Below are positions 5,509-37,944 of a stretch of DNA of 37,944 nt, piece by piece. Each line of letters opens with the position of its first letter. Position 1 is the first letter of the stretch. A program made the position numbers and the translations under genes. The notes under the pieces were generated by a model. It saw only the letters and a list, made by a program, of their open reading frames with translations, ran no database searches and was not told the origin of the DNA. This stretch comes from a virus. The stretch lies in IMG/VR virus record IMGVR_UViG_3300047380_000126, positions 1 through 37,944 of that record, one strand, 5' to 3'.

Positions 5509-6432
5509 TTATCCTAACGCGATTGCGAGCGCCAAGGCGTCAGCCTCTGCGGCTGCGGGTGTCGTGTATCCAGCGGCAGCGTGATCGCCCCAGCCGTATG
5601 CGGTGTCAGCGCTAGTACCTTGCGCGGCTGTGGCGTAGTCCGTAGCGGCTGTGGCGGCTGCTGTGCCGAGCGTAGGTAGCCCGCTCAAGTCAGCATACGC
5701 GCCAGACGTCGCCACCGTTGACAAGTCCGCAGGCTGCACAGCCGTGTCGGCCAGCGCGCCCTGCGCGGCTGTGGCGAGCGTTGACGTCTCAACAGAGCCA
5801 TCGACCCACACAGACCCGTCGTAGATGCGCACGATGTTGTCCGTGGTGTTGTAGTACCAGTCGCCAGCCGTCAGGGCTGCACCCAAGCCGTCAACCGACG
5901 GGTCGGACGCCTGCGCGCCTAAGTACAGGCCGTCGATTGCGTCCTTCGCAGCCTCGGCAGCAGCCTGTGCGGTCTCGGCGTTGGTCTCTGCCGTCTCTGC
6001 GGCTGCCTGCGCCGTCTCAGACGCTGCCTGCGCCGTCTGGGCGGCTGTAGCTGACGTAGCCGCGCTAGAAGCGCTGGTAGACGCCTCGGACGCCTTGGTG
6101 GTCGCTGTCGCCGCGCTTGTGGACGCCTCAGACGCCTTGGTCGTGGCTGTTGCTGCTGACGCTGCGGCGTTGGTCTCCGCCGTCTCAGCGTTAGTCTCTG
6201 CCGTCTCTGCGGCTGTCTCAGAGAGAGCTGCCGCTGCGGCACTGGCTGCGGCTGCGTCCTTGGACGCCTCGGCCTGCTCCGTAAAGTCCTCGACGTTGTC
6301 AACGCCTGTGTCGCTAATCATGCCAGAGCGCTGCGTGTAGCTTGTGTCTGTGGGCGTCAGATCGTCGGTGACGTTATCTGCGTCCGTGTCTGACGTCATG
6401 CCCGCAGACTGGCTCCAGTTTGTCGTTGCCAT
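5509..6432 (-). CDS. Tail fibre protein with long Ala-rich coiled coil
   Basis: A 307-residue fibre. Residues about 45-170 are an Ala/Glu/Thr/Ser heptad-like repeat (blocks such as AETAETNAETAETN and TKASEASTSAATA), expected to form a long trimeric coiled-coil shaft. After it comes a small domain with LYLGAQASDPSVDG and DWYYNTTDNIVRIYDG, a motif common at fibre joints, then the Ala-rich YADLSGLPTLGTAA and YGWGDHAAAGY segments common to fibre ends. It is probably the main fibre; the later small genes would supply tip or accessory parts. It overlaps the adaptor gene by one base (TGATG). The repetitive DNA is GC-rich and prone to slippage. Confidence 0.85.
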   Translation of the reverse strand: MATTNWSQSAGMTSDTDADNVTDDLTPTDTSYTQRSGMISDTGVDNVEDFTEQAEASKDAAAASAAAAALSETAAETAETNAETAETNAAASAATATTKASEASTSAATATTKASEASTSASSAATSATAAQTAQAASETAQAAAETAETNAETAQAAAEAAKDAIDGLYLGAQASDPSVDGLGAALTAGDWYYNTTDNIVRIYDGSVWVDGSVETSTLATAAQGALADTAVQPADLSTVATSGAYADLSGLPTLGTAAATAATDYATAAQGTSADTAYGWGDHAAAGYTTPAAAEADALALAIALG

Positions 6433-7037
6433 CAGCGAGGCACTCCCATGCGTAGCGGCCCTGCGGTCTGGCCCTTCTGGCTTTCCAAGTTGAGCTTCTC
6501 AACGCCCGCTTGGTACAAGGCACCCCAGATAGCCGCGCGGGCGTCATCCGTGAGGTAGGGCGCGGAATGCACCAGTGCACCGTACAGCAGCACGTCAGGC
6601 GCGTCGGTCAGCAGCCAGTTGGTTGTGTCAGTGTCACTTAGCGCTGGGATGCGCGCGTAGTACAGCATAGAGATGTCAGTCGCCGCGCTGGGTGTCGGGT
6701 AGAACTCAATCTGGTCTGCCGTCATGCGGATGTAGCGAGGCTCAGCCGATGCGTTAGACCCCTCCCGGCGCTGGGCCATCTCAGACGCTGAGATCGTCTG
6801 GAGCATCTTGCCAGTCGTCAGCGCGACCAGCTTGATCTCCAGCCAGTCATTGGGCAGGTTCTCATAGCGCTCATCGACAGATGTCGTGACGCGCTTCTCC
6901 TGCTTCCAGTGTCGCACGTCGCGCGCGATCTGCGCCTCGGCCAGCGAGATGAACGTCGGGATCACCGCCGTCAGGTCGTCCCTGTTGAGGAAGTCGGCAA
7001 CCGCCGTTTTTAGCTCTGCGTATGTTGTGATTGCCAT
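6432..7037 (-). CDS. Phage adaptor protein (head-to-tail connector)
   Basis: A 201-residue protein whose N-terminus, TYAELKTAVADFLNRDDL followed by IPTFISLAEAQIARDVRH, is the recognised start of the phage adaptor family. This family sits beneath the portal in podovirus-like virions and links it to the tail. Later blocks (YENLPNDWLEI, YIRMTADQIEFYPTP, LYYARIPAL, DAPDVLLYGAL) fit the same family. The start ATG at 7037 follows the stop of the small basic gene with no gap. It precedes the fibre genes in transcription order, as expected for a neck protein. Confidence 0.85.
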   Translation of the reverse strand: MAITTYAELKTAVADFLNRDDLTAVIPTFISLAEAQIARDVRHWKQEKRVTTSVDERYENLPNDWLEIKLVALTTGKMLQTISASEMAQRREGSNASAEPRYIRMTADQIEFYPTPSAATDISMLYYARIPALSDTDTTNWLLTDAPDVLLYGALVHSAPYLTDDARAAIWGALYQAGVEKLNLESQKGQTAGPLRMGVPR

Positions 7038-7163
7038 TTAACAGTCCCACGCTTTTCTGGACCAGTAGTTGGCCGACAGTTTCGATGATTTACCCTTTAT
7101 ACCACCAGAACGCGCGCAATACGAAGACTTTCGCTTTGCCTGATCTTTCTTGGTGCGGGGCAT
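7038..7163 (-). CDS. Small basic phage protein (41 aa)
   Basis: A 41-residue, strongly basic protein starting MPRTKKDQAKRKSSYCARSG and ending SANYWSRKAWDC. It begins on the stop of the upstream gene (TAATG) with AAGGA about 10 bases upstream, and the adaptor gene starts right after its stop, so it fills the gap exactly. Similar tiny Lys/Arg/Cys proteins are common between late genes of podo- and myophages; their function is unknown. The two Cys (residues 16 and 41) could be structural. Confidence 0.75.
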   Translation of the reverse strand: MPRTKKDQAKRKSSYCARSGGIKGKSSKLSANYWSRKAWDC

Positions 7164-8959
7164 TACTGGAGTAATCCTTGCGGCTGCTGCTCTTGCTCAG
7201 GCATTGTTGAAAGAAGACCGAGACCGCCGAGGCCTGCGCCCACGCCGTACATAGTGCGCCCGCCACCTGCAACGCTTCGCTCTGGGTTTGGCTCATTAAA
7301 CCAATTTGGCATTGTGAACCCACCCGCCTGCTCTTCGATCATGGCTAGTGCCTGTTGCTGGCTTAACTCGCCGCGTGCGTGCGCCTGCCAAATAGCCTCA
7401 ACATTTGCTTTGGCTTTAGCCGATTTGTTTGTAAATAACCCTCGAATCCCCTCCCAAGTAATAGACTGCGTCTCTCTTGGGAGATACCCGTACTCACTTG
7501 CGACAGCCCTGTAATTGTCTGCCTGCTGTCCGTAATTGCCTCGCGCGCCCGTCGCTGCGCTTTTAAACATTCCACCCAAACCTTGCGTAACAAGAGGATC
7601 TGACCCGGCCAGAGGCCGCATATTCCCTACGGCGATGGCGTGGGTGTCCACCGTGATGTCACCCATGTCGCTAAAAGGGACCTCAATGTTGTTGAAAAAG
7701 TTCCTGACCTTGTGCTGGTCTCCCATAGAATTTGATATGAGCTGGAAGTCCCCTCCGCTTTCAATAGCGTTCACAGCCTTTTCGATGTCACTAAAGCTAC
7801 CCCAAGAAATTTTTGCTGGTGCGCCCTTACCAGTTAACACGAAATCACCGAGGCTACCTTCTGGCGTTAACGCCCTGTAGTTTTTAGGGTTATAAGCTTC
7901 ATCGTAAGCCCGCACCCACATAGCCTTTTGTGGGCCTGTCTCTAATTGAGAAAACGACTTTCCTTGAATTTGCGCCCATGTGTCTGCGTTCTTTCCCTTA
8001 GTAAACGACGGGTAAGCATCAGCTACAGCGCCCATCTCAGACGTCCACGGGTGATTGCGATTAGCTATCACAGCGTCAGCCACACGTTCCGCCAAAGAAG
8101 CATTTTTGAACCAATCCATCTGCGGAGACAACGCAGCTATAGCGCCAGACATAGACGCGCGAGGAACGCCATACCGCTGCGAAAGCTCGTCAGAGAACCT
8201 GTTAGCTCCGACGTACCAAAGCTTCGCGCGGTCTTGAAACTCTGGAGGAAGCTTGTCCATCACAAATCGGATGTTTTCCTTTTGGAAGTCGTTGTAAAGG
8301 CTGGCAGCCTCTTCCGTGGGAAGCCCGCGCACCCACTCATAGCCCGGCTGCTCGGCTATGAAGTCCATGTTCTTTCCTAAAGTCCCCGCCCGCTCCATGT
8401 CAACTTGCCCGATGCCAAGCAGGCCAGTCAGCGGGTCGGCGTCTGGGTTGGCCCCTGCGGGCTGGCGAGTTGATATTCGGCCAGTGGGTCCGAACTGCGG
8501 GTCCGCCCCCGGCACTCGCGGGCTACCAACGCGCCCACCCATATCAAACGGCGCGTCAGTCTGCGGCCTCAACCGCACATTGCCGCCCATTGAACCGAAG
8601 GCGTTAGGCATAACCTCAATGCGATCAGCTAAGTCAGCCGCCTTACGCCCCGCAGCCATGATAGGCCGTGCCACCATGTCACCCGCGCCCGGCACAAGGC
8701 CGATAGCCGCGCCAGTGCCTAACAACCCCGCAGCCATAAGCTCACCGCGTGAGGCGGCGTCATACGCCTCGCCCAGCGCCAAGACATCACCAATGCCTGG
8801 GATGAAGTCCTGAGAGGCGCGCATAGCCTCAACGCTAGTGGGTTCTTGGTCGCGGTTGCGAGCAAGTAGGCCACCTTGATACAGGTCAGCGTAGCCGCCC
8901 GCAGGGGCGGTGGTGCGGTAGTCCTGATCCGAAAATAACATGTCCCAAATACTTGCCAT
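7163..8959 (-). CDS. Large late protein with HhH-GPD (DNA glycosylase)-like signature
   Basis: A 598-residue protein in the virion operon. Residues about 50-110 are Gly/Ala-rich with hydrophobic stretches (LMAAGLLGTGAAIGLVPGAG), typical of ejected proteins that cross membranes. Residues 275-286 (AALSPQMDWFKN), 411-421 (SMGDQHKVRNF) and 436-441 (TVDTHA) match, in order and spacing, three conserved elements of HhH-GPD DNA glycosylases: the LxxxLSxQ…xxN helix, the GxGxxK hairpin and the VDTH catalytic-Asp segment. I recall related phage proteins as DUF7178. No Fe-S cysteines follow. The start at 8959 uses TGATG overlap; the GTG one codon earlier is less likely. It could be a virion protein with a degenerate or active nucleic-acid domain. 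Confidence 0.65.
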   Translation of the reverse strand: MASIWDMLFSDQDYRTTAPAGGYADLYQGGLLARNRDQEPTSVEAMRASQDFIPGIGDVLALGEAYDAASRGELMAAGLLGTGAAIGLVPGAGDMVARPIMAAGRKAADLADRIEVMPNAFGSMGGNVRLRPQTDAPFDMGGRVGSPRVPGADPQFGPTGRISTRQPAGANPDADPLTGLLGIGQVDMERAGTLGKNMDFIAEQPGYEWVRGLPTEEAASLYNDFQKENIRFVMDKLPPEFQDRAKLWYVGANRFSDELSQRYGVPRASMSGAIAALSPQMDWFKNASLAERVADAVIANRNHPWTSEMGAVADAYPSFTKGKNADTWAQIQGKSFSQLETGPQKAMWVRAYDEAYNPKNYRALTPEGSLGDFVLTGKGAPAKISWGSFSDIEKAVNAIESGGDFQLISNSMGDQHKVRNFFNNIEVPFSDMGDITVDTHAIAVGNMRPLAGSDPLVTQGLGGMFKSAATGARGNYGQQADNYRAVASEYGYLPRETQSITWEGIRGLFTNKSAKAKANVEAIWQAHARGELSQQQALAMIEEQAGGFTMPNWFNEPNPERSVAGGGRTMYGVGAGLGGLGLLSTMPEQEQQPQGLLQ

Positions 8960-9102
8960 CACTTACGCCTCTTTGCTGTCTTAGCCGCTTTCTTGAACGC
9001 CTTGGCGGTGGGCGCACCCTCAGTGCCGGGCTTGCGCATCTTCTCGCCAGAGCCAGCGGCGATGCGCTTCTTTTTAGCGGCGATGTTGCTGTACAGGCCC
9101 AT
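8959..9102 (-). CDS. Small basic protein, MGLYSNIAAKKKRIAAGSGE family
   Basis: A 47-residue, Lys/Arg-rich protein beginning MGLYSNIAAKKKRIAAGSGE and continuing KMRKPGTEGAPTAKAF. This pattern (GLYxNIxAKxxRIxxGSGExMRxPGxxGAPTxxxF) is one of the most frequent small proteins in late operons of marine and T7-like phages; its function is not known. It overlaps the genes on both sides by one to three bases (TAATG upstream, TGATG downstream), which confirms the start and its place in the operon. A DNA-binding or internal virion role would fit its charge but is a guess. Confidence 0.82.
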   Translation of the reverse strand: MGLYSNIAAKKKRIAAGSGEKMRKPGTEGAPTAKAFKKAAKTAKRRK

Positions 9103-9210: not shown

Positions 9211-9705
9211 TTACCGTATTGCCTGATATTGCTGTTGCATAAAGGCATTGAAGGGCATTGCCCCACCAGACAAAACAAAATTCCGATACATGTCAGCAAC
9301 CTCTGTCCCGTTCAACATAGCAGGGACTGTACTCATGGCCTGATTATAGACCTCCAGTCTTGAGAGGGGACTATAACTAGCCTCTAGCTCTGGCGGCAAA
9401 GACGAACCTGCTTGTGGGCCGTAGCGATTTTCCATCATGTCATAGGGGTCGCGCGCTGGGGACACAGGTGTGCGCACAGGCGCTGAGTTGACGCCGCTCG
9501 CGGCCATAGGCTCGCCGCCGATCTGGTCAGAGCCATAGAACGCCTGCCGAGCAGCGCGTCGCTCTGGGTCTTTGGACCCGTAGGGAGAGGCGAAGACGTT
9601 GCCCAACATAGACAGCAGGCCGCCGCCTTCGAACGTGTCGCCCGACTGGCCCATGCCACCGCCGTCAATGCGGTCCAGAAAGTCTAAAAATCGTTTCTCA
9701 GCCAT
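9211..9705 (-). CDS. Late-operon protein of unknown function (164 aa)
   Basis: I do not recognise this protein. The start ATG at 9705 (MAEKRFLDFLDRIDGGGMG) shares a base with the large-terminase stop (TGATG); a further-upstream TTG start would extend deep into the terminase gene and is unlikely. The N-terminal half is Gly-rich (FEGGGLLSMLGNVFASPYG), with a stretch resembling the GGGFLSTLGNAFGG end of the virion protein at 35679-36371. The C-terminal half is helical (PLSRLEVYNQAMSTVPAML). It may be an internal or neck virion protein, judging only from position and composition. Confidence 0.6.
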   Translation of the reverse strand: MAEKRFLDFLDRIDGGGMGQSGDTFEGGGLLSMLGNVFASPYGSKDPERRAARQAFYGSDQIGGEPMAASGVNSAPVRTPVSPARDPYDMMENRYGPQAGSSLPPELEASYSPLSRLEVYNQAMSTVPAMLNGTEVADMYRNFVLSGGAMPFNAFMQQQYQAIR

Positions 9706-11099
9706 CAGGCTACTCCCTTCAAGTTCCGTCGTAGCGGCTTGCCCCACGTTGAGGCCTTACCGCCGAGTGCAGTAGCGGCATCCGAGGCGAGGGTCAGACA
9801 CACCGCGTCTGCGTAGTCTGGGGAGGACAGTCCGCGCTTGCGCATGTCGTCTTTACCCTCCGCCTTCATCTTGCCGCTACTGGCGAAACTATACCTGATT
9901 GACGTCAATTCCGCAATAAGTTGCTCGTTTTTGGGTAGTTTGGCCCCGCGCTGCTCTAGCCACCCTCGCATCTTGAACCACAACTCAGCCCGCAAGTTCG
10001 TGTACGTGTCGCCCATGCTCGGACTTTCCGCCACGTTAATACCGCGCACCGGGACGTTAAGCTCGCGCAGGCGGTCAACCACACCGCCGCCCATGCCGAT
10101 CACGTCCACCATGATCTCACGCGGGCGCAGGTGGCTTGGCAAGCCGTCGTACTCAGCCTTAACCCGACCCACCGTCTGCATCAGGTCTAGCCCCTGCCAG
10201 CCGTTGACCTCAGTGATCACGTTGCCCTGCCGCTTAGCTAGTACCGTCTTGTCCGAGCCAAACCGCGCTACGTCTAACCCCCAGACCGTCTGGGCGTCCT
10301 CGTCTAGCTCAATGTCACGCTGCGTGGCCGCTTCCACAAGGTGAAACGGTATGATCGTGTCGTCGTCAGCTAGAGGGAACTCGCCAAGCACCCTGATTCT
10401 AAAGGCGTTGCTCCCCTCCCCATATCGCAGCCGCATCTCGTCAACAAACTCCTCAGACACAAGCGGACTATCAACGCAGCTCCAACGCCGCGTCCAATAA
10501 CTACCCGACAGCCGGGTCTGGCTCTCAAAGAACGTCCCGCTCGACCTCGTAGGGTTCGAGAGCAGGATCGTCGTGGCCGCGTGACCCGACATACTACCCG
10601 CAGCCGCCTCGAACACCTTCTCAGGAACACCCGACGCCTCGTCCACCACCAGCAGCACGTTCTCACTGTGAACACCCGCCAAGGCCTCTGGCGTCTCCGC
10701 GCGGCTCGTTCTGGCCGATATGAACGCCTCAGACGGCGCAGCCGCTAGCTCAACCCTGTCAGACTTGACCGTCAGCATGGGCTTCAACTGATCAGGCAGC
10801 TCGTTGATCCACCGCTTCAGCTCAGCGAACAGCGCGTCGAAAAGCTGGCCGCTGGTGGGAGCCGTCACCACCACCTTATTCGGAAACCGCAGCAGCACGT
10901 ACCACAGCATAGCCCACGAGGCCGACGTGGACTTACCTGTCCCGTGGCCACTGCGCACGCTCATCTTGCGCTCACCATCCGCAATAGCCTGCAAGAACTC
11001 CGCCTGATACGGTAACGGGGTCGCGCCCAGCACCTCACGCACAAACTTCACAGGATCGTCGCGGTACTCTAGGACAAACTCTTCTAGGGGGTTACTCAT
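9705..11099 (-). CDS. terL: Terminase large subunit
   Basis: The packaging motor, 464 residues. The N-terminal ATPase shows Walker A SGHGTGKST at 50-58, Walker B VLLVVDEA at 148-155 (D153, E154) and the coupling motif TTILLSNPT at about 176-184. The C-terminal RNase H-like nuclease shows D276 in GLDVARFGSDKT, D332 in MVDVIGMGGGVV and D428/D431 in SPDYADAV, the three acidic positions needed for two-metal cleavage. It docks on the portal, pumps DNA into the prohead and cuts it. It overlaps the small subunit by 8 bases. The protein class alone does not settle whether packaging is headful (pac) or cos. Confidence 0.96.
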   Translation of the reverse strand: MSNPLEEFVLEYRDDPVKFVREVLGATPLPYQAEFLQAIADGERKMSVRSGHGTGKSTSASWAMLWYVLLRFPNKVVVTAPTSGQLFDALFAELKRWINELPDQLKPMLTVKSDRVELAAAPSEAFISARTSRAETPEALAGVHSENVLLVVDEASGVPEKVFEAAAGSMSGHAATTILLSNPTRSSGTFFESQTRLSGSYWTRRWSCVDSPLVSEEFVDEMRLRYGEGSNAFRIRVLGEFPLADDDTIIPFHLVEAATQRDIELDEDAQTVWGLDVARFGSDKTVLAKRQGNVITEVNGWQGLDLMQTVGRVKAEYDGLPSHLRPREIMVDVIGMGGGVVDRLRELNVPVRGINVAESPSMGDTYTNLRAELWFKMRGWLEQRGAKLPKNEQLIAELTSIRYSFASSGKMKAEGKDDMRKRGLSSPDYADAVCLTLASDAATALGGKASTWGKPLRRNLKGVA

Positions 11100-11577
11100 C
11101 CGTCACATCCTCATACGTGGCCTCAACCGCGCGGTCATCCGCGTCAATCGCCGCCAGCTCGCTATTCACCTTGCGCAGCGCATCCAGATGCATGTCGCCA
11201 ATGCTGATCGTCACGTTGCTCTGTGGCCGTGTGCCATACTTATTCTGGTTCATGCTACCCGCCATGAACTTGCGGAAGTTCACCTTCTCGCGCGTCGCTG
11301 CAATCTCATTGCTGCTGCTGTCGGCGTCTAGGCTGTCAACCATCTCTAAGCCCTGCTCAACCAGCGCGTCAGCCGCTTCCTCACGCGCCCCCTCAAGGGC
11401 CGCCTTGTACTCTGGCACACTGTTGATAGCTCGGCTCACGTAGCTGCGAGTACACCCGTACTGTCTTGCGATCTCCGCGATAGTGACGCCGCTCGCCACT
11501 TGATCAAACAGCCAGTCGGCCCCGCCGCTGTTCGATATGTCTGTCAGTATCCGCTTTCGAAGCGCCTTGCCTGCCAT
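11092..11577 (-). CDS. terS: Terminase small subunit
   Basis: A 161-residue DNA-recognition subunit of the packaging motor. An N-terminal helix-turn-helix is visible at about 30-55 (VTIAEIARQYGCTRSYVSRA), followed by a helical oligomerisation region (PEYKAALEGAREEAADALV) and VNFRKFMAGSMNQNKYG, a common end of Sf6-like small terminases. ATG at 11577 is preferred over a TTG 5 codons earlier because GAGG lies about 8 bases before the ATG and would be inside the longer reading frame. The 8-base overlap with terL supports coupling. It opens the packaging operon directly after the repeat-rich gap, where its binding site could lie. Confidence 0.9.
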   Translation of the reverse strand: MAGKALRKRILTDISNSGGADWLFDQVASGVTIAEIARQYGCTRSYVSRAINSVPEYKAALEGAREEAADALVEQGLEMVDSLDADSSSNEIAATREKVNFRKFMAGSMNQNKYGTRPQSNVTISIGDMHLDALRKVNSELAAIDADDRAVEATYEDVTDE

Positions 11578-11725
11578 TTTCAATCCTCGCAATTTTTTAA
11601 AATTTTATGGTAGGCGGTGTTTTTTAGCAAGGGTGGGGGTGGGGGGTCAAATATCGAAGCCGTGTGTGCGTTTTCATATACACATACACGCCCGCCCGCC
11701 AACCGGGGGCGGGAGGGGGTCCGAG

Positions 11726-21917: not shown

Positions 21918-22094
21918 ATGACTGATCTCGAACGCATCAAATCTCTCAAACAGTACATCAAATACAAAGAGCGCGCTGTAGCGGGCCACGCGAGCGGTGT
22001 GCGGTCAGGAGCTACATCAGCCGACATCGCTATGGATCGCAGCGCACTCGCTCGCGCAGCAATGGAACTGTCCAAGCTGGAGGGCAAGCAATGA
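21918..22094 (+). CDS. Small helical protein (58 aa)
   Basis: A 58-residue protein (MTDLERIKSLKQYIKYKERA, then GHASGVRSGATSADIAMDRS and ALARAAMELSKLEGKQ), basic and helical. It has a clean GAGGA 8 bases before the ATG and a 4-base ATGA overlap with the hydrolase gene downstream, so it is almost certainly translated. No family is recognised. It could be a small regulator or accessory protein of the early operon. Confidence 0.7.
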   Translation: MTDLERIKSLKQYIKYKERAVAGHASGVRSGATSADIAMDRSALARAAMELSKLEGKQ

Positions 22095-22504
22095 TGTTCA
22101 CAACGGCAGCAACGTGCTTGGCGCTTGCAATTTACCATGAGGCTCGCGGAGAGCCTAACGACGGTCAACTGTGGGTAGCGGAGGTTATCATGAACCGCGT
22201 CGATCATCCCAGCTACCCAGACAGCGTTTGCGGCGTCGTAACACAGCACAACACGCCAATCAGCCGACCCCGCGCGTGCCAGTTTAGCTTTTACTGCGAC
22301 GGGGCGTCAGACAAGCCGCGCGAGGGTGCAGCTTGGGGGAAGGCAAAGCGTATTGCCAGGCAGACGCTGGAAGGCACAGTGCTCGGCACGAATGCGACGC
22401 ACTACCACTCAAAGTCTGTGCGCCCAAGCTGGGCCAAGAGGCTGACGCTGGTCGGCTCTGCTGGGTCTCACATATTTTATACAGACGGAAAGCTAGACAA
22501 ATGA
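22091..22504 (+). CDS. SleB/CwlJ-like cell-wall hydrolase
   Basis: A 137-residue Hydrolase_2-family protein. The catalytic-type Glu is E17 in IYHEARGEP; further family marks are WVAEVIMNRV, the YPDSVCGVV block and QFSFYCDG at 64-71. These enzymes cut peptidoglycan glycan strands. There is no clear signal peptide: the hydrophobic start (TTAATCLALAIYHEARGEP) is itself part of the domain. It is odd that it lies in the early operon, away from the lysis cassette at 24426-25934; a role in lysis would need export or a holin. GGAGG lies 7 bases before the ATG. Related in type to the N-terminus of the 33074-34642 product. Confidence 0.9.
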   Translation: MMFTTAATCLALAIYHEARGEPNDGQLWVAEVIMNRVDHPSYPDSVCGVVTQHNTPISRPRACQFSFYCDGASDKPREGAAWGKAKRIARQTLEGTVLGTNATHYHSKSVRPSWAKRLTLVGSAGSHIFYTDGKLDK

Positions 22505-23700
22505 TGAAGTACGGAAGCGTATGCAGCGGCGTCGAAGCTGCTACAGCCGCGTGGCACCCCCTTGGATGGAAGCCGCAGTGGTTCAGCGAAATTGAAAAGT
22601 TCCCATCGGCAGTGCTGGAGCATCATCACCCAAACACGCCAAACCTTGGCGACATGACAAACTTTAAGGAGTGGCCCAATGACCCAATCGACCTTCTTGT
22701 TGGAGGAACCCCATGCCAATCGTTCAGCGTCGCAGGACTTCGCAAAGGACTTGATGACCCACGAGGCAACCTCATGCTCACCTATCTTGCCATTGCTGAA
22801 CGCTATCAGCCCAGATGGCTGGTTTGGGAGAACGTCTCCGGCGTATTGTCATCCAACCGAGGACGGGATTTTGGAACCTTCCTCGCCGCGTTGGGGCAAA
22901 TCGGGTTTGGGTTCGCCTACAGAATGCTGGACGCTCAATACTTCGGAGTGGCCCAGCGACGCCGCCGTGTGTTCGTTGTCGGACACCTTGGAGACTGGCG
23001 ACGTGCCGCAGCGGTTCTTTTTGAGCGCGAAAGCCTGTCAGGGTATCCTGCGCCGAGCAGAGAAGCGCGGGAAGAAGTTGCCAGAGGCCCTGCAAAAAGC
23101 TTTGGAAGAGGGAAGCAAAACATCGGAGCCCTGCCAATAGCTTACGACACAACGAACATCACAAGCCCTGCAAATGGCTCGAACCCAAAGCCAAGCGACC
23201 CTGTTTTCACTTTAGCAAAAGGCCAGCACCCACCACTGCTGACACCAGCAATTTGCGCACCACTTAACACGCAACTTGGATTGCGTGGGGCTGATACAAG
23301 CAATATCAGCCGCGACAGTGTGTCAACCGAAGTCACGCCCACGCTGGGTAAGAGCAAGACGCCAGCGGCGGCTTTTGCGATACATCCACACTCAATAGGT
23401 CGCAAACCAAGTGCTGGGCCTCAAGGTAGGGATCATCTTGACGCAGAGCAAGCGTACACCCATGACGCAAGGGGAGTGGCGCAAGCAGTCGCAAAAGGTC
23501 ATCAAGTACGCCGCCTAACCCCAATCGAATGCGAGCGCCTACAGGGCTTCCCAGACAATTACACGCAGATAGCGTGGCGCAATAAGGCAGCAGAGGATTG
23601 CCCAGATGGCCCACGCTATAAGGCAATGGGCAACAGCATGGCTGTGCCTGTGATGCGCTGGATCGGTGAGAGGATACAGATGGTGGAGGATATGGAATGA
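22501..23700 (+). CDS. C5-cytosine DNA methyltransferase
   Basis: A 399-residue DNA (cytosine-5) methyltransferase. Motif I is SVCSGVEAAT at about 6-15 (AdoMet), motif IV GGTPCQSFSVAG with catalytic C72, motif VI ENV at 110-112, motif VIII QRRRRVFVVG at 152-161, and motifs IX-X RRLTPIECERLQGFP and YKAMGNSM near the C-terminus. Residues about 165-340 form the target-recognition region, so the target sequence cannot be read from here. No restriction endonuclease lies nearby, so this looks like an orphan enzyme, likely protecting the phage DNA from host restriction. The start ATG at 22501 overlaps the hydrolase stop (ATGA). Confidence 0.95.
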   Translation: MMKYGSVCSGVEAATAAWHPLGWKPQWFSEIEKFPSAVLEHHHPNTPNLGDMTNFKEWPNDPIDLLVGGTPCQSFSVAGLRKGLDDPRGNLMLTYLAIAERYQPRWLVWENVSGVLSSNRGRDFGTFLAALGQIGFGFAYRMLDAQYFGVAQRRRRVFVVGHLGDWRRAAAVLFERESLSGYPAPSREAREEVARGPAKSFGRGKQNIGALPIAYDTTNITSPANGSNPKPSDPVFTLAKGQHPPLLTPAICAPLNTQLGLRGADTSNISRDSVSTEVTPTLGKSKTPAAAFAIHPHSIGRKPSAGPQGRDHLDAEQAYTHDARGVAQAVAKGHQVRRLTPIECERLQGFPDNYTQIAWRNKAAEDCPDGPRYKAMGNSMAVPVMRWIGERIQMVEDME

Positions 23701-30851: not shown

Positions 30852-33074
30852 TTATCTCGCAAAGTCGTAGCCAGTGGTGCGTTTAATTTGTTCTAACGCG
30901 AGGTCTCGGCCCGCGCCCGCTTGTGCCTTAGCCTCGTCTGTTGTCGCCGCTTGGCCAGACACACCGACTACGCCGCCACGCACTGGCGCGGGGGTCGGAG
31001 CCGCTTGAATAGCGTTAATTGCTCTCGCCCCGCCAAATGCCTTCCTGACCATGTTTCCGCCCACGGCCCGTGTCGCGAACTGAGCGAAGTTAGTTGAACC
31101 CAGAGCGTTCGCCAGCGCCCCCAGAATGTTCGCCCCCGCAGCCGCTGAGTTTGAGGAATTAACCGCCCCACTAGTGGCGCGCGCTGCGACATTCGCAAAC
31201 TGGTTAATTAGTTTGCGCTCCTCCGGGGAGAACAACGCCTTGATCATCGCGGGGTTATCGGTAGACATCTTTTTCCACTCTTTTCTGAATTTGACTCCAG
31301 AAAACGTGTCCTGCCCACCCGACGCAGCCTTACCAGCGTTTGCCAAACGCACGAAGGCTTCCTGCCGTATGCCGTCCCAATCTGCTGGGGGCAAAGTGTT
31401 ACGCAGCTTTATGATGTCGCGAGCAACCTGCGGGTTGCTTGATATTTTGCTTGAGCTGACCCCAAAAATAGCATTTGACGCCGCTTCTGGAGAAACTTTT
31501 AATACCATATCCCCATCGCGCCCGACCTTCTCGGTTAGCTTGTTAAGTATACCGCCCTTGCTCTTCCAAGTGGACGCAAAGTCTTTGTAGTTAGATATTG
31601 CGGTTTTCCACGCAGCGACAGCCGCCTCGTCCCCAGAAATTAAAGCGTCATCAAGAGCTGTACCCATCTCGGCGTCAAATATGCCTTTCAACCTCCGTGC
31701 CGCGACACCCTCTTGGCCCATCTCGGAACCCAGCGCCGTAAGCCTTTGGCGAATGGCAAACAACTCCCGCACGTCGCCGCCTTCAGCCAAGGTGCGGTCA
31801 ATGTCATCAATAAATTTCCCAGTCATCGGTACGTTTGACAACTCAAAATCAGCCGCCATTTGGTCGCGCGCTGAGCCAATGAACTTAGCCCCAAAATCTT
31901 CATCAACGAACGCGGGACCAGACCCGCGAGCCTGCGCGTATAGGGTATTTGCTTTGCGCTGTGCCGCTTCCCGCTGAGCCGACAAGGTTGCTTGAGCAGG
32001 GCCACCAGCCTCACCAACGGCGCTTACCGTCGGGCTGTCGCCGCCAACTTGCCCTCGGATCGCCTCGACGTTCTGCTGCAACGCAGCCTGCGTGTCCGCT
32101 CGGCGTCCGCGCAGAATGCTCGACGCGGTCTCGCCGAACGAGCCTTTTAGCGCCATATCCTCAAAAAGCTGCTGCCCTTGATCCCCTGTTACGGCCCCTT
32201 TAGTGAGTGGGACAGGTACAGGTAAATCTGCGGCCTCGGCCATTCGGGCTGCCTCAACTGGGTCTGCGCCTTGATCAACCTTACGAAGTATTTTTGTCAG
32301 CGTGTCGGCTGTTACAGCCTCCGGGTCGATACCCATGTCTCGCACTTGAGAAGCTATTTCAGGTCTAAGCTGCCCAGAAGCGTCTAACACAGCCTCTGGC
32401 GACTTTTTAAACACGTTGACCAGCGAGCCTAACACATCAATAGCTTTGGCCCCAATCACGCCGCCAGTCGCCCCCGTGGGGATGTCGCTTAGCTTATAGG
32501 GCGCGCCCGATAGCTTTGAACTAACCGCCTCAACTAACGCGGCCTCCGTCGCGCCTGTTGTGGCTGCGCCGAACAACCCCGCTACGGGGGCACCTAAAAA
32601 TTTGGCCGCTTTTAAAACACCGCTTCCCATAGTTGCGGCCCCTGCCCCAACCATAACGTCCGCGAGGTCTAGCCCCTTCGGGTTAGGGTAAAAGCGCGTG
32701 TATTGCTGGGTTGGTTCGCCGTCTTTGTACACGGGAACGACGGCAACTAAGTTATCAAACTGGTCTTTCTGAAACTCGGCCCCCGGAATAATTTTCTTGA
32801 TGCCCGATTGGAGACGATCATCGCTAACCGTGGTAGACAACAACGCCACCATCTTAGCCGCGTCTTTCTTAGGCAACCCTATATTAGCCTGCGAGGCTAG
32901 TGGAATGCTCTCTTCGCGCTTACCACCCTTAAACCAGTCAACAGTGCGATTAACTAAACCTTTTTCTGGCTCTGCATCTGGCTCAACTTCAGGCGTGTCT
33001 CCACTCCAGTCTTTTTCCCAAGGCTTGGACACCTGCGCTGGCGAACCCCAATCCTTATCCCACGGGTTCCCCAT
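30852..33074 (-). CDS. Large ejection (pilot) protein
   Basis: A 740-residue protein that probably leaves the virion with the DNA, like P22 gp16. The N-terminus has repeated NPWDKDW/KPWEKDW units, a mark of this class. Residues about 139-170 are hydrophobic and Gly/Ala-rich (MVGAGAATMGSGVLKAAKFL, APVAGLFGAATTGATEAAL), fit for membrane insertion. The rest is helical, with RQRLTALGSEMGQEGVAARR and WKTAISNYKDFASTWKSKGG, typical of phage internal proteins. No protease or hydrolase motif is visible. Its start overlaps the preceding gene by one base (TAATG). Confidence 0.78.
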   Translation of the reverse strand: MGNPWDKDWGSPAQVSKPWEKDWSGDTPEVEPDAEPEKGLVNRTVDWFKGGKREESIPLASQANIGLPKKDAAKMVALLSTTVSDDRLQSGIKKIIPGAEFQKDQFDNLVAVVPVYKDGEPTQQYTRFYPNPKGLDLADVMVGAGAATMGSGVLKAAKFLGAPVAGLFGAATTGATEAALVEAVSSKLSGAPYKLSDIPTGATGGVIGAKAIDVLGSLVNVFKKSPEAVLDASGQLRPEIASQVRDMGIDPEAVTADTLTKILRKVDQGADPVEAARMAEAADLPVPVPLTKGAVTGDQGQQLFEDMALKGSFGETASSILRGRRADTQAALQQNVEAIRGQVGGDSPTVSAVGEAGGPAQATLSAQREAAQRKANTLYAQARGSGPAFVDEDFGAKFIGSARDQMAADFELSNVPMTGKFIDDIDRTLAEGGDVRELFAIRQRLTALGSEMGQEGVAARRLKGIFDAEMGTALDDALISGDEAAVAAWKTAISNYKDFASTWKSKGGILNKLTEKVGRDGDMVLKVSPEAASNAIFGVSSSKISSNPQVARDIIKLRNTLPPADWDGIRQEAFVRLANAGKAASGGQDTFSGVKFRKEWKKMSTDNPAMIKALFSPEERKLINQFANVAARATSGAVNSSNSAAAGANILGALANALGSTNFAQFATRAVGGNMVRKAFGGARAINAIQAAPTPAPVRGGVVGVSGQAATTDEAKAQAGAGRDLALEQIKRTTGYDFAR

Positions 33075-34642
33075 TAGATTGGCTCCCAGTTGTTTTTGTT
33101 ATTCGGGTCTCCACCTTTAAATCTAAAGCCGTTGTTGACAGTCCCGATTGCGGGGCCACCTTGGCTGGAAACGCCCGCCTCTACACCCTCGCCGCCAGCG
33201 CCGTGTGTAGAAAGTATTGACTGTACAGCCGCTGGAATTTTCGAGTTTGTATCAAGCGCGGCGAGAGCGTTGTTAGTCTCGGCTAGTGTCGCGCCGTCAG
33301 TCATGTAGCTGTTAATGATTTTGCGGCGTTGCATGTTGTAACGCGCTTTTGCTTGCATAACCCCAATAATTGCTTGGTTGGCTTCGGGACTGTTGCGAAG
33401 GCTCCCCAAAGAGTTAAGCATGGCGTCAAACTCAAGATCAGAAGTCGCGCCAGATCCTTCGACCCGTAGTGTTGGAGCAACTCGCTTGATAATTGACTGC
33501 CTCACAGCCGCTACGTCGGTAGCCTCTGGGAACATCTCAGCCAATCGCCCGACCACGGGTCCAGATGGGGCAAGAGGCGTTAATTCTTGCAGCACGTTTA
33601 AATCTTGCATCGCCGCAGCAGACTTGGCCCCAGCATCCAGATAAGAAGCAAAGTTCTCGCCCTGTTTTGACATGAGTTTTTCGCGCAACTTACCTTCTGC
33701 GTCTACTTGATCACCTAAGTTGAAAGTTTGCCCGCCGCTCATCGCTCGGAATTGGTCCGCAGCTTCCTTACCTTGCTCCGCAAGTATGCGTTGATATTCG
33801 CTAAAGTTCTGCATTGCGGCAGTGCGGTCATCTTTAGGCTTCGCGAAACGCTGCGCCAACACCTGCTTCGCCACAGCGGCTGGCCCCGCGATCTCAGCCA
33901 GCTTCACAAGCTCTTCCCCGTTTGGCATTTTACGGAGCATCTCCATAGTCCTATTCTTAGCCTTAGCCTCTGTGCGCTGCTCGGCGATATTGTCGGCAAT
34001 CTCTTCCATGCCCATGATGCCCATGCGCCCGAAGCCCTGCGCCAAGAGCGCTGCCGTGTCTTTGAAGCTGTCCCGATTGTAGAAGCGCTGGCCAGTCTCG
34101 CCCGATGCGCCCTCTTGCATCTTCTGAACACCAAGGCCACCCAGAAATCCGCGCGGTGTCTCTTCTTCTTGCTGCATCATGGGTGCTGTTCCTTTTGTAC
34201 TCACTGTCGCTTGGGGGGAGCGCTTCCCGCGCCCCGCGTCTGCGAAACCAAAAATGTGGTCACCTATACGCAGCCAGTCGCCCCCGGCTCGCTTTTGGCC
34301 CCACTTGGGGTTTGAGATTGACGGGTTGTAATAATGCGTAGCGCCGCCAGTCTGGTCCTGATAGTCGCCTGTTAACAGCTTGTCTGCGGCTTGATAGGCA
34401 ACTGAACTAGGGCGCATATTGAGCATGTCCTGCCCCTGCTCGCCACCCGCGTAACCTGTCAGGCTATTCCAAGCCGAGAACTGCCCCGGCTTTAGGATGA
34501 CCCCGCGCAGGCCGCTCCCGTACCCCGGTGTCTGCGTGCGGTTCATAATGACCGAGCCAGTCGCCAGCATACCGCCCAAGCCTTGATTACCTGCTTCGGC
34601 CTGTAGCGTTTTTGCTAGTAAGTCTCGGTCATTAATATCCAT
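33074..34642 (-). CDS. Ejection protein with N-terminal SleB-like hydrolase
   Basis: A 522-residue virion protein. The first 110 residues are a Hydrolase_2 (SleB/CwlJ) domain: catalytic-type Glu in LQAEAGNQG (E16), VIMNRTQTPGYG, QFSAWNS at 54-60, and ATHYYNPSISNPKWG. The remainder is helical, Gln/Ala/Lys-rich (AALLAQGFGRMGIMGMEEIA, LTPLAPSGPVVGRLAEMFPE). Such virion hydrolases open the cell wall locally for DNA entry. ATG at 34642 shares a base with the preceding stop (TGATG); the TTG one codon earlier is less likely. It pairs with the pilot protein encoded next. Confidence 0.85.
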   Translation of the reverse strand: MDINDRDLLAKTLQAEAGNQGLGGMLATGSVIMNRTQTPGYGSGLRGVILKPGQFSAWNSLTGYAGGEQGQDMLNMRPSSVAYQAADKLLTGDYQDQTGGATHYYNPSISNPKWGQKRAGGDWLRIGDHIFGFADAGRGKRSPQATVSTKGTAPMMQQEEETPRGFLGGLGVQKMQEGASGETGQRFYNRDSFKDTAALLAQGFGRMGIMGMEEIADNIAEQRTEAKAKNRTMEMLRKMPNGEELVKLAEIAGPAAVAKQVLAQRFAKPKDDRTAAMQNFSEYQRILAEQGKEAADQFRAMSGGQTFNLGDQVDAEGKLREKLMSKQGENFASYLDAGAKSAAAMQDLNVLQELTPLAPSGPVVGRLAEMFPEATDVAAVRQSIIKRVAPTLRVEGSGATSDLEFDAMLNSLGSLRNSPEANQAIIGVMQAKARYNMQRRKIINSYMTDGATLAETNNALAALDTNSKIPAAVQSILSTHGAGGEGVEAGVSSQGGPAIGTVNNGFRFKGGDPNNKNNWEPI

Positions 34643-35679
34643 CAACCGACCTCCGCCGCCAGTCCGCTATAGTCAACGCGGAGGAAGCCGTCTGGGCCAA
34701 GCTGTACGAGGTGTGGGTGCGTCTCCTGAAGCTCCTGCGCCATGACACCTACTGTCGGCTGCGCTGGATCAGCGATCCGCTTGCCGTCTTCGTTCCAGTC
34801 CCAAGAGTAGACGTTGACGCCGTTCTCTTTACCGAGCGGCTTGATGTTGGTCTTGAGGCGGATGTCTGAGGATGCCGCCGCGCTGGCCGCAAGTGACAGG
34901 TAGTCAAACAGCCCCGGCGTCTTAGTCTGCGTCTTTGTTTCGGGAACAGGCGTAGCACCCATCGTACCGATCTGCGTCTGTAGGCCTGCGGCTGGCGCGC
35001 CTGTGTAACCCGCATACTGACCGCGCGCGGCGTCGATAAGAGACTGCTGCATAACCTGCTGCATGAGACCTTGACGCATCTGGTCCTGCTGAATTGTACG
35101 ACCTGTATTGAACGCTTGGTTGCCTAGTTGCCCAAGCTGCGCTGCGCCACCCATCATCATTTGCTGCTGGTTCTGTGCCGCCCCAAGCGCCGTGTTAAAC
35201 CCTTGCTGCTGTAAGTTACCAAAGGTCTGCGCGCCCTGACGAGCAAACGCCTCGTTAGTCAGCGCATCGGCAACCCCGTGACGGGAGCCGCCGAACGCCC
35301 CTGCGGCGCTTGCCTGTGCGCCCGTCGTGTTCGCCTGCATCTGTCGCTGCCGCTCAAGGCTGTCGAGCGTCTGCCCCGTCACCATGTTTGTGTACGGGTT
35401 CATGAACTGCCCAATGTTTGGGCCTGCCATTGCGCGCTGCGTGCCTTGCATGGCCTGTTGTAGGCCGCCCGCCGCCGCTTTATTGACGTTGAAGTCTCCT
35501 TGCGGCGCTAGAGGTGCGTAACCGCCCTGCGTTGGTGTGGCTGGTTGGTAGGTGTTACCTGTAGGTTCCCCCTGCGTTGCTATGGCTGGTTGCAGTCTCA
35601 TACCTCCAGCCCCCATCGGAGACGGCATGACGGGTTGCGATGGCGTTGTGAAATTAAAACCTGTTGCTGAACCTGCCAT
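34642..35679 (-). CDS. Internal/tail protein with C-terminal S74 autochaperone
   Basis: A 345-residue protein. The middle is a Gln/Met/Gly-rich helical region (QQQGFNTALGAAQNQQQMMM), typical of internal virion proteins. The last 80 residues are a peptidase S74 intramolecular chaperone: SSDIRLKTNIKPLG with the cleavage Ser before D-x-R-L-K, NVYSWDWNEDG, VGVMAQELQETHPHLV, and the FLRVDYSGLAAEV end. In endosialidases and tail spikes this domain trimerises the chain and then cuts itself off. It is less usual on an Ala/Gln-rich internal-type protein. TAATG overlap fixes the start. Confidence 0.82.
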   Translation of the reverse strand: MAGSATGFNFTTPSQPVMPSPMGAGGMRLQPAIATQGEPTGNTYQPATPTQGGYAPLAPQGDFNVNKAAAGGLQQAMQGTQRAMAGPNIGQFMNPYTNMVTGQTLDSLERQRQMQANTTGAQASAAGAFGGSRHGVADALTNEAFARQGAQTFGNLQQQGFNTALGAAQNQQQMMMGGAAQLGQLGNQAFNTGRTIQQDQMRQGLMQQVMQQSLIDAARGQYAGYTGAPAAGLQTQIGTMGATPVPETKTQTKTPGLFDYLSLAASAAASSDIRLKTNIKPLGKENGVNVYSWDWNEDGKRIADPAQPTVGVMAQELQETHPHLVQLGPDGFLRVDYSGLAAEVG

Positions 35680-36371
35680 TACGATCTACCTCCAAAAGCA
35701 TTACCGAGGGTCGAGAGGAACCCGCCACCAGAAAATTCGCCGCCGCGCTGCCCTGCGCCGCCACGGTCAATCATGTCACCAACCCCTGTGTAGCCACCGG
35801 GGCCGTAGCCCGCAGACCCGTTTAGGTTTGGCCCTTGGTACGAGTCAAACAGGCCGCGCCCGTTACCGGGGGTGCCGTAGCCGTCGTAGGTTGACGCCTC
35901 GCCGCCCATATTAATCCCGCCGAGATTGGTCCCTCGCGAGACAGGCGCGGGAGCGCGGGCCGCGCGGCTCCCCATCGCCCCCGTCACAGGGTCAATAGAA
36001 AAACTGCGGAGATAGTCGTACTGCCCCGGCGCGGTTGCTTCTAGTTGGGCCAGCATGTCTTCATACATAGGCGCGGAGGAGTACCCGCGCACGCCGCCTG
36101 CGTAAGTTGTTGGGGCGTCCATGCCGCCTCTAAGGTCTCGCGCGGACATGTCGCCGCCGCTCAGCCCGAACGCGCTTGCGGCGTCTGCCGTATTACGGAA
36201 CGCCGCTTCCTGCATGGGGGTGAACGCCGCGACTGTCGGCCCGTACTCAGGCACATAGCCCATCGCAGCAATGTCGTCGGCTTTATTGAGGTTACGTCTC
36301 GCCGCGTCTTCGATGTACTGAGGGATCGTGACTTCGCTAGTTTGCTTACCGCCTTTACCGCCGCCTGCCAT
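35679..36371 (-). CDS. Gly-rich virion protein
   Basis: A 230-residue protein. It starts MAGGGKGGKQTSEVTIPQYI, then EDAARRNLNKADDIAAMGYV and PEYGPTVAAFTPMQEAAFRN, which is the start of a common phage internal-protein family. The C-terminal half is low-complexity Gly/Tyr/Ser (TYDGYGTPGNGRGLFDSYQG) ending GGGFLSTLGNAFGG, an end that resembles the Gly-rich start of the 9211-9705 product. It overlaps both neighbours by one base (TAATG). A structural or internal role is inferred from composition and place. Confidence 0.68.
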   Translation of the reverse strand: MAGGGKGGKQTSEVTIPQYIEDAARRNLNKADDIAAMGYVPEYGPTVAAFTPMQEAAFRNTADAASAFGLSGGDMSARDLRGGMDAPTTYAGGVRGYSSAPMYEDMLAQLEATAPGQYDYLRSFSIDPVTGAMGSRAARAPAPVSRGTNLGGINMGGEASTYDGYGTPGNGRGLFDSYQGPNLNGSAGYGPGGYTGVGDMIDRGGAGQRGGEFSGGGFLSTLGNAFGGRS

Positions 36372-36730: not shown

Positions 36731-37383
36731 GCCCTGATCCTCGTGATTGACAGCGAAGTCGAGGGCGCGCTGGGCGCATAGGCCGTCGCAGCGGTAGCGT
36801 GCAGATAGCCTGACGTGCTGTCCACGGCCCACATGACCTCAAGGTAGTCGCCAGCGCTCACGCTGAATATCGCCGTTCTTGAGACAACATTCGTCGCGTT
36901 GTTCTGGTGTAGGTTGGTCACGATAGTGCTTCCCGCAACGTCTGTTCCGTTGATCCTCGGCCAGAAGCGGAAAGACACTGTGCTGCTAGACGTTGACGTG
37001 ACCTGCGCGGAAAACGCTAAGATGTACGTCCCGCCCTCCGCAAACGTGATCCGACTTGCGGGCGTGCCAAGCGTGATGCCAGAACTCATCGCGGGTGCGT
37101 CGTACGTGATAGCGTACGCAGTGTTTACCGCCGCCGCCGTGATGTCAGCGTCTTGGCCAAGAAACGCATAGCCGTCCGCCAGCACGACCTGCCGCCACTC
37201 TCCGTCCTTGGACACTGTCGGGTATCCGTCGACTTGGTCCCACAGCAAAATGCCGTTTTCACTCGCGTTGTCGTCTGCCGTTTTGGTGAACAGTCGCGGG
37301 AGCTGCCTCGACAGATACGAGGATAGCTGCCGTCCCCACTGCGGCAGGTCTGGGCCAATGGGAGGTAAAACTGGCGCTGGCAT
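36727..37383 (-). CDS. C1q-like tail accessory protein
   Basis: A 218-residue protein. The start (MPAPVLPPIGPDLPQWGRQL, SSYLSRQLPRLF) is a proline-rich anchor. A linker carries WDQVDGYPTVSKDGEW. The C-terminal half, about 85-218, is a beta-rich C1q-like domain: ITFAEGGTYILAFSAQ (the GxYxL/F pattern), RFWPRINGTDVAGS, ISVSAGDY-like (IFSVSAGDYLEVMWAVD) and SLSITRIRA as last strand. It may decorate the tail or bind a receptor. The TAATG overlap with the tail protein gene supports the start. Confidence 0.72.
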   Translation of the reverse strand: MPAPVLPPIGPDLPQWGRQLSSYLSRQLPRLFTKTADDNASENGILLWDQVDGYPTVSKDGEWRQVVLADGYAFLGQDADITAAAVNTAYAITYDAPAMSSGITLGTPASRITFAEGGTYILAFSAQVTSTSSSTVSFRFWPRINGTDVAGSTIVTNLHQNNATNVVSRTAIFSVSAGDYLEVMWAVDSTSGYLHATAATAYAPSAPSTSLSITRIRA

Positions 37384-37944
37384 TAGCGCTTACCCATCGG
37401 CTTAGCCTCAATCCGCATGGTGCCGACGCGCCAAGGTCCGAGCTGGTCGCCCTCAATGCGCATGCGCGCCTGACGCCCAGTGAAGCGCAGGGATGTCGGG
37501 TTTGACGGGTCAAACGGACCGTGGCTTGTCTCTTCGCCGTTGGGATAGAGCCGCGTCTTGAACGTGAGGGTCACGTCGCCCTGCGTGACTTCGTCGGGGA
37601 TGAGCTTAGTCACAGACATGACCTGCTCGCCTACGCCCAGCGCTACGGGCGCGGTCTCAGCAAATATCGTGTCGCCATCCACGTTGTAGCCGACTTCATG
37701 CTCTTGCAGTGAGAGATCAGGGCTTGCCATGAACGGGTACTTGAAGACGCCGCGCTGGACGCCCGAAGTGCGCGAAAGCTCCCCGATGAGCCAATGGTTT
37801 TCCTTGTAATCGAACGCGACGTAGCGGTCTATTTCGAGGCTACTTTGCGACGGGAAGAACCACCAGATTTCGCTGTTTTGGCCGTTGTTCCAAGCCCAAA
37901 TCTTCGACTGCTGCGCGGGGTTGAGACCCCCAACACCAAACACG
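37383..37944 (-). CDS. Tail structural protein, C-terminal part (split at the window edge)
   Basis: The C-terminal continuation of the gene that begins at 1065. From 37817 to 37383 it adds 144 residues and the stop; 37818-37944 is the same sequence as 1-127. It includes MRIEGDQLGPWRVG and the end MRIEAKPMGKR. It precedes the C1q-like gene with a one-base overlap (TAATG). The split is only an effect of where the circle was opened, not a broken gene. Confidence 0.85.
   Translation of the reverse strand, partial: VFGVGGLNPAQQSKIWAWNNGQNSEIWWFFPSQSSLEIDRYVAFDYKENHWLIGELSRTSGVQRGVFKYPFMASPDLSLQEHEVGYNVDGDTIFAETAPVALGVGEQVMSVTKLIPDEVTQGDVTLTFKTRLYPNGEETSHGPFDPSNPTSLRFTGRQARMRIEGDQLGPWRVGTMRIEAKPMGKR
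37818..37944. repeat. Terminal direct repeat, right copy
   Basis: Identical to bases 1-127. Removing one copy gives a 37,817-bp closed genome in which the tail gene reads through without interruption. Confidence 0.93.

Follow-up and report, generated by a model that had tools for sequence, protein, structure and literature searches.

The window analysed here, a complete 37,944-nucleotide genome of a marine phage (IMG/VR record IMGVR_UViG_3300047380_000126), carries at 7163..8959 on its minus strand the gene of a protein that belongs to DUF7178, a domain family of unknown function. On the evidence of sequence profiles and structure models, DUF7178 is best read as a new, OGG-like subfamily of the HhH-GPD superfamily of DNA glycosylases. 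The predicted HhH-GPD fold is well supported and, in our judgement, very probable. Base excision by the domain is probable, and so is its delivery with the virion, to which operon position and domain fusions in relatives point circumstantially; that both hold, giving a phage-delivered OGG-like base-excision domain with its emphasis on repair, has in our view somewhat better than an even chance. New in this reading is the delivery setting for a known enzyme superfamily, since informal glycosylase labels on compact members of the family already exist.

Relationship of DUF7178 to HhH-GPD glycosylases

Counted from the ATG at 8959, numbered here as residue 1, the gene runs for 598 codons to a stop codon ending at 7163; translation could also begin at an overlapping, in-frame GTG at 8962 (599 codons). 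The protein matches DUF7178 (PF23802) with 70.1 bits against a cut-off of 27 (E = 3e-19), in two stretches that flank an insert, and phrog_3842 at 2.7e-21, neither family having an assigned function. The initial annotation, made from the letters of the sequence, had given the family label correctly and had proposed a glycosylase signature in three blocks. HhH-GPD glycosylases such as Nth and MutY carry an LLSxQ…xxN helix, an LPGVGxKxA hairpin and a VDTHV segment with the catalytic aspartate. The blocks compared with these are present at the residues given, namely AALSPQMDWFKN (residues 275-286, 8102..8137), SMGDQHKVRNF (411-421, 7697..7729) and TVDTHA (436-441, 7637..7654), all on the minus strand like the other features of this gene below, with lysine at 417 and aspartate at 438. 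In an alignment of 38 non-redundant relatives with 29-83% identity, most of the invariant columns fall within these blocks, which are therefore not a product of chance. In the first block, which corresponds to LSPnnkWxxN in compact relatives, the S, P, W and N are invariant.

Relatives of the protein were found at 79 viral loci in one scan, in at least 585 viral contigs in a profile scan, and at 17 genome loci. Compact proteins of about 200 residues, which match PF23802 at E-values of 1e-59 to 1e-73, occur in at least 147 phage records; they include Streptomyces phage Triumph gp79, Rhodococcus phage Shagrat gp113 and Mycobacterium phage Kumao gp115, and several had been deposited, independently by their depositors, as glycosylase, DNA glycosylase or N-glycosylase. 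A search of viral contigs with Cece gp22, the compact protein queried first, brought up no relatives, whereas one with Triumph gp79 did. Plasmid matches to DUF7178 were short remnants in Bradyrhizobium; one of these (L315, 4883-6454), on a conjugative plasmid, adjoins a TIR-domain gene.

Fold comparison is clearest for the compact form. A compact member modelled from its own family alignment (pLDDT 94.3, pTM 0.89) had HhH-GPD glycosylases as all 17 of its 17 best PDB matches in Foldseek, led by MjaOgg2 (probability 1.00, template-modelling (TM) score 0.58), so that in this compact form the predicted fold agrees with the one that the initial annotation had proposed. The matches comprised MjaOgg2, Tm1821, hOGG1/mOGG1, Pa-AGOG (probability 0.94), CaOGG and Deinococcus EndoIII, with TM scores of 0.58-0.60; none fell below E = 0.001 (best 0.01), and their strength lies in probability and consistency. 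The domain of the window protein itself, modelled with AlphaFold2 over residues 159-564 (406 residues, 7268..8485), is all-helical (pLDDT 92.5, pTM 0.90). Among predicted viral structures, this model matched full-length relatives and compact proteins of about 200 residues that share the same core.

For sequence comparison we built profiles of the window-type domain (A1) and of the compact members (A4), and a profile of OGG2 from archaeal PF22175 loci. A4 matched OGG2 with P = 9e-8 and a probability of 94%, and none of 100 column shuffles and none of 100 block shuffles did as well (best shuffle 33, against 55). In the same set-up OGG2 and Nth, which are known relatives, matched each other less strongly (P = 5e-5). 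A4 also matched Nth (P = 0.0036; no shuffle as good among 150 of either kind), and its comparisons with MutY (0.13; 23 of 150 shuffles as good) and AlkA were not significant. A1 and A4 are close to each other (P = 1.7e-25). Neither the window protein nor the compact proteins matched OGG2 (PF22175) in hmmscan; DUF7178 has not been filed with OGG2 because the two are related only at the profile-profile level. AGOG (PF09171) gave no hmmscan match for the window protein, and no AGOG sequences were found in the archaeal phylum searched.

The predicted base pocket

Residues were counted over 229 distinct domain sequences, comprising compact, mid-size and giant forms, with each denominator being the number of sequences that cover the position. 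The two residues that the initial annotation had singled out as decisive are invariant, K417 in 162/162 and D438 in 163/163. Equally constant are F421 (162/162), H440 (163/163), Q498 (171/171) and the tryptophans W248 and W283 (175/175 each), and W502 is kept in 169/171. Of these, F421, H440 and the pair Q498/W502 had been missed before. The pair lies outside the three blocks, in the stretch QSITW (residues 498-502, 7454..7468), and together these residues appear to complete an OGG-type base pocket.

The alignment of A4 with OGG2 pairs D147, H149, D194 and W198 of MjaOgg2 with D438, H440, Q498 and W502 of DUF7178, respectively. The catalytic residues of MjaOgg2 are K129 and D147; position 129 is a glutamine in the 3knt chain and a lysine in 3fhf, which fixes the numbering. 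In hOGG1 the counterpart of D438 is D268. At the places of H440, Q498 and W502, the pocket of hOGG1 uses H270, Q315 and F319, according to a reference listed in PMC9638937. AGOG sandwiches the base between a tryptophan and a phenylalanine four residues after its lysine (F144/F146; PMC9638937), and DUF7178 likewise has a phenylalanine at this position, F421. We predict K417 as the catalytic lysine, D438 as the catalytic aspartate and F421 as a residue that stacks on the base. In HhH-GPD enzymes the catalytic aspartate stands in a V/I-D-x-H pattern after the hairpin, and bifunctional members have their lysine where the second helix of the hairpin begins.

If so, the target would be a base that is damaged or modified, in the simplest case an oxidised purine. 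It would be flipped into the pocket, where F421 and W502 would stack on it and Q498 and H440 would contact it, while D438 with K417 would cleave its N-glycosidic bond, after which a lyase step may follow.

Outside this core, about 85 residues of the window protein (about 303-388, 7796..8053) form an insert with a conserved WxRxxDE...YR..TPEG pattern, which is missing from compact DUF7178 proteins and from OGG2. The membrane-friendly Gly/Ala stretches that had been described are there as far as composition goes, at residues 74-92 (8684..8740), but are only mildly hydrophobic; with a best 19-residue Kyte-Doolittle mean of just 1.6, a transmembrane helix at this place was rejected as weak.

Genome context and domain fusions

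An exact 127-base direct terminal repeat (1-127 and 37818-37944) shows that the window is a complete genome, assembled as a circle, and the open reading frame (ORF) at 37383-37943 therefore continues across its ends. On the minus strand, the DUF7178 gene follows the genes of the small (11092..11592) and large (9705..11099) terminase subunits, the latter in the same late operon, and a short uncharacterised ORF (9211..9747) that is partly conserved in the nearest relatives; directly downstream lie the gene of a virion structural protein (phrog_2941, 6432..7037) and then that of a tail fibre. Portal, scaffold and capsid genes run in the same direction. The placement in a virion operon noted in the initial annotation is thus borne out by a late context between the large terminase subunit and a virion protein. 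Near relatives retain this order of three genes, and in other relatives the large terminase subunit or the portal adjoins. Apparently as an independent instance, mycobacteriophage Myrna has a large form in its virion region, the 636-residue gp102 (L204, 2291-4201), just after the major head protein.

In relatives, DUF7178 is fused in one frame to a range of other domains. A SleB-type cell-wall hydrolase (Hydrolase_2) is joined to it in two loci (L059, L062); since the window carries such a hydrolase as a separate protein (PF07486, 523 residues, 33074..34645, minus strand, late region), these fusions join what are two genes here. An amidase (Amidase_2) is the partner in L030, and further fusions involve ART-PolyVal, PBECR5, LPD22, RadC/GGDEF and a methyltransferase. 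Several domains per polypeptide occur in L087, L095, L081, L064, L062, L030 and others. The 5134-codon frame of L087 (864-16265), in a betaproteobacterial metagenome-assembled genome, is an unusually rich polyvalent protein and combines DUF7178 with a GH108 lysozyme, InPase, LPD37, two ART-PolyVal stretches and LPD38. These partners are domains of polyvalent proteins, which have been argued to be injected with the DNA (PMC5512222).

Some further features of the genome may be mentioned. Its early region encodes a C5-cytosine DNA methylase (22333-23700; PF00145, E = 1.4e-54), which may serve to mark the phage's DNA as self, and a second SleB-type Hydrolase_2 protein of 137 residues (22091-22504), separate from the late one. 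The motif GGG(L/F)LSxLGNxF is common to the otherwise unrelated-looking ORFs 9211-9747 and 35679-36371, internal in one and C-terminal in the other, and is perhaps a shared virion-targeting or docking signal. The product of 34642-35679 matches a PHROG called DNA ejection protein and ends in a Peptidase_S74 intramolecular chaperone, a domain usually found on tail fibres.

Role in infection and comparison with known systems

We propose that the DUF7178 protein, a late product, is a short representative of the polyvalent (injected multidomain) proteins, which is probably taken up into the virion along with the genome and probably accompanies the DNA into the cell. It could then act ahead of phage gene expression, and the phage would most likely benefit by having damage cleared early from its incoming genome, before this is replicated. 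Such repair is the role we favour, because compact relatives are found with genes of DNA metabolism.

A number of observations weigh against this proposal. Direct searches with the window protein (Pfam, PDB sequences, PF00730) gave no HhH-GPD match, PF00730 being matched neither in hmmscan nor in the genome search, and A1 did not significantly match OGG2 or Nth, with P still at about 0.1 once the insert had been taken out; merged with the compact members, it gave P = 3.6e-4. The model of the window domain had no PDB match at E < 0.001, and among the matches listed only the 8-oxoguanine glycosylase Pa-AGOG, with a probability of 0.44, exceeded 0.12; the insert and extensions probably weaken this search by drawing in long helical proteins. 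The HhH-GPD likeness first claimed for the window protein therefore holds by transitivity, through compact relatives that match in both fold and profile, and by the shared invariant residues, whereas neither profile nor fold search establishes it for the window protein alone. Within the active site, the lysine of DUF7178 is one position off the catalytic lysine of OGG2 in the best alignment, owing to a shorter hairpin, whose two helices are joined by a turn of two residues in the compact model. This hairpin lacks the GxGxK glycines, in the window-type alignment as in compact relatives, and had rightly been called degenerate; the hairpin of AGOG, an accepted HhH-GPD member, is non-canonical as well, and its catalytic residues are superimposable (PMC3397491). 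Further, the C-terminal residues vary among compact members. In OGG2 a C-terminal lysine senses 8-oxoguanine, and as it is not kept, the substrate may be a base other than this. Finally, where delivery is concerned, the window protein has DUF7178 as its single recognised domain, and compact members sit among early or DNA-metabolism genes (thyX, primase, RNA polymerase, SSB) rather than virion genes, which means that delivery does not extend to the whole family.

The main rival, which we consider unlikely, holds that the domain is an injected weapon, excising bases (perhaps host-specific modified ones) from the host chromosome, from plasmids or from the DNA of rival phages, with the effect that abasic sites cripple host replication or that nucleotides are freed. 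It stands first among the alternatives because of the conflict domains fused to DUF7178 in relatives (ART-PolyVal, PBECR5, RadC, InPase), and the phage's own C5-cytosine methylase could mark self DNA. Base excision serves the converse role, antiphage defence, in Brig1/2/3 (PMC13160076) and in restriction glycosylases (PMC10273834). Yet the gene neighbourhood of the compact relatives suits a protein that works on the DNA of its own phage, a repair enzyme is the nearest match to both fold and pocket, and no immunity gene or target is known.

Improbable, in our estimate, is a decayed glycosylase that would bind or bend DNA without cutting it, for example in packaging or ejection. Such a role would suit the degenerate hairpin and the vicinity of terminase and virion proteins, but it would not lead one to expect that D438, K417, F421, Q498 and W502 are kept together, and the catalytic and pocket residues are invariant from compact through mid-size to giant forms. 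Still less probable is an enzyme with an HhH-GPD-like fold that flips out a phage base in order to modify it, as has been proposed for glycosylase-like transferases in thymidine hypermodification. Some hypermodification enzymes are HhH-glycosylase-like, and compact members lie near thyX in two phages; however, DUF7178 retains the full residue set for excision, lysine included, and a position among virion genes is ill-suited to modifying the genome during replication. A 5-hydroxymethyldeoxyuridine DNA kinase (PF18723) was not found in the window genome, the control genomes likewise giving no positive. That DUF7178 is an unrelated all-helical virion protein with a coincidental HhH-GPD likeness, as the missing Pfam match and the weak PDB search of the window domain would allow, is largely refuted by the compact relatives (17/17 top PDB matches HhH-GPD, probability 1.00 for OGG2), by a profile P of about 1e-7 with shuffle controls and by the alignment of pocket residues, and we regard it as very remote.

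Returning to the delivered base-excision domain, its OGG-type fold and pocket turn DUF7178 from a domain of unknown function into a testable enzyme, and base excision would join the activities already described for injected polyvalent proteins. If delivery is true, phages bring a ready-made base-excision enzyme into the cell, which raises questions on the repair of virion DNA damaged by sunlight or oxidation, and base excision as a phage weapon would mirror the defensive glycosylases of bacteria. More tentatively, with a chance we put just short of even, DUF7178 may represent a widespread, unnamed family of virion-delivered base-excision enzymes in tailed phages, which would use them to repair their own genome or to harm DNA already present in the cell; the glycosylase would often be one part of a giant polyvalent protein that also holds cell-wall hydrolases and ADP-ribosyltransferases, and would act in the first minutes of infection. 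Our literature search, with most subscription papers outside its reach, found no paper on DUF7178, and the polyvalent-protein and jumbo-phage literature examined describes no HhH-GPD glycosylase in polyvalent proteins.

Among known systems, OGG2 (Ogg-HhH, PF22175; MjaOgg2, 3knt/3fhf; Tm1821, 3n0u), an 8-oxoguanine DNA glycosylase and apurinic/apyrimidinic (AP) lyase, is the closest in the measures given above for fold and profile. It shares with DUF7178 the length of the compact form, the catalytic aspartate, the DxH and (D/Q)xxxW patterns and an FxRNxxG-like stretch after the hairpin. Besides the hairpin, the shifted lysine and the C-terminal sensor already discussed, DUF7178 differs in having F for H four residues after the lysine and Q for D194, and the window form adds the 85-residue insert, N- and C-terminal extensions and the setting of a phage virion operon. 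AGOG (Pa-AGOG, 1xqp) resembles DUF7178 in its non-canonical hairpin, the phenylalanine four residues after the catalytic lysine and the stacking tryptophan, and Pa-AGOG is the best HhH-GPD structure match of the window domain; the spacing from lysine to aspartate is 32 in AGOG as against 17-21 in DUF7178. The compact phage proteins belong to the same family as the window protein but stand alone, without insert or extensions, and lie in early or DNA-metabolism regions where their context could be seen.

The larger relatives are akin to polyvalent proteins in carrying ART-PolyVal, LPD22/37/38, RadC, InPase, PBECR5, and lysozyme or SleB hydrolase domains; the description of that class names no glycosylase, base excision or abasic sites (PMC5512222). 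Brig1 and Brig3, finally, resemble the proposed system in bringing base excision into phage-host conflict, and differ from it in being bacterial and defensive and in belonging to the uracil-DNA-glycosylase superfamily instead of HhH-GPD (PMC13160076).
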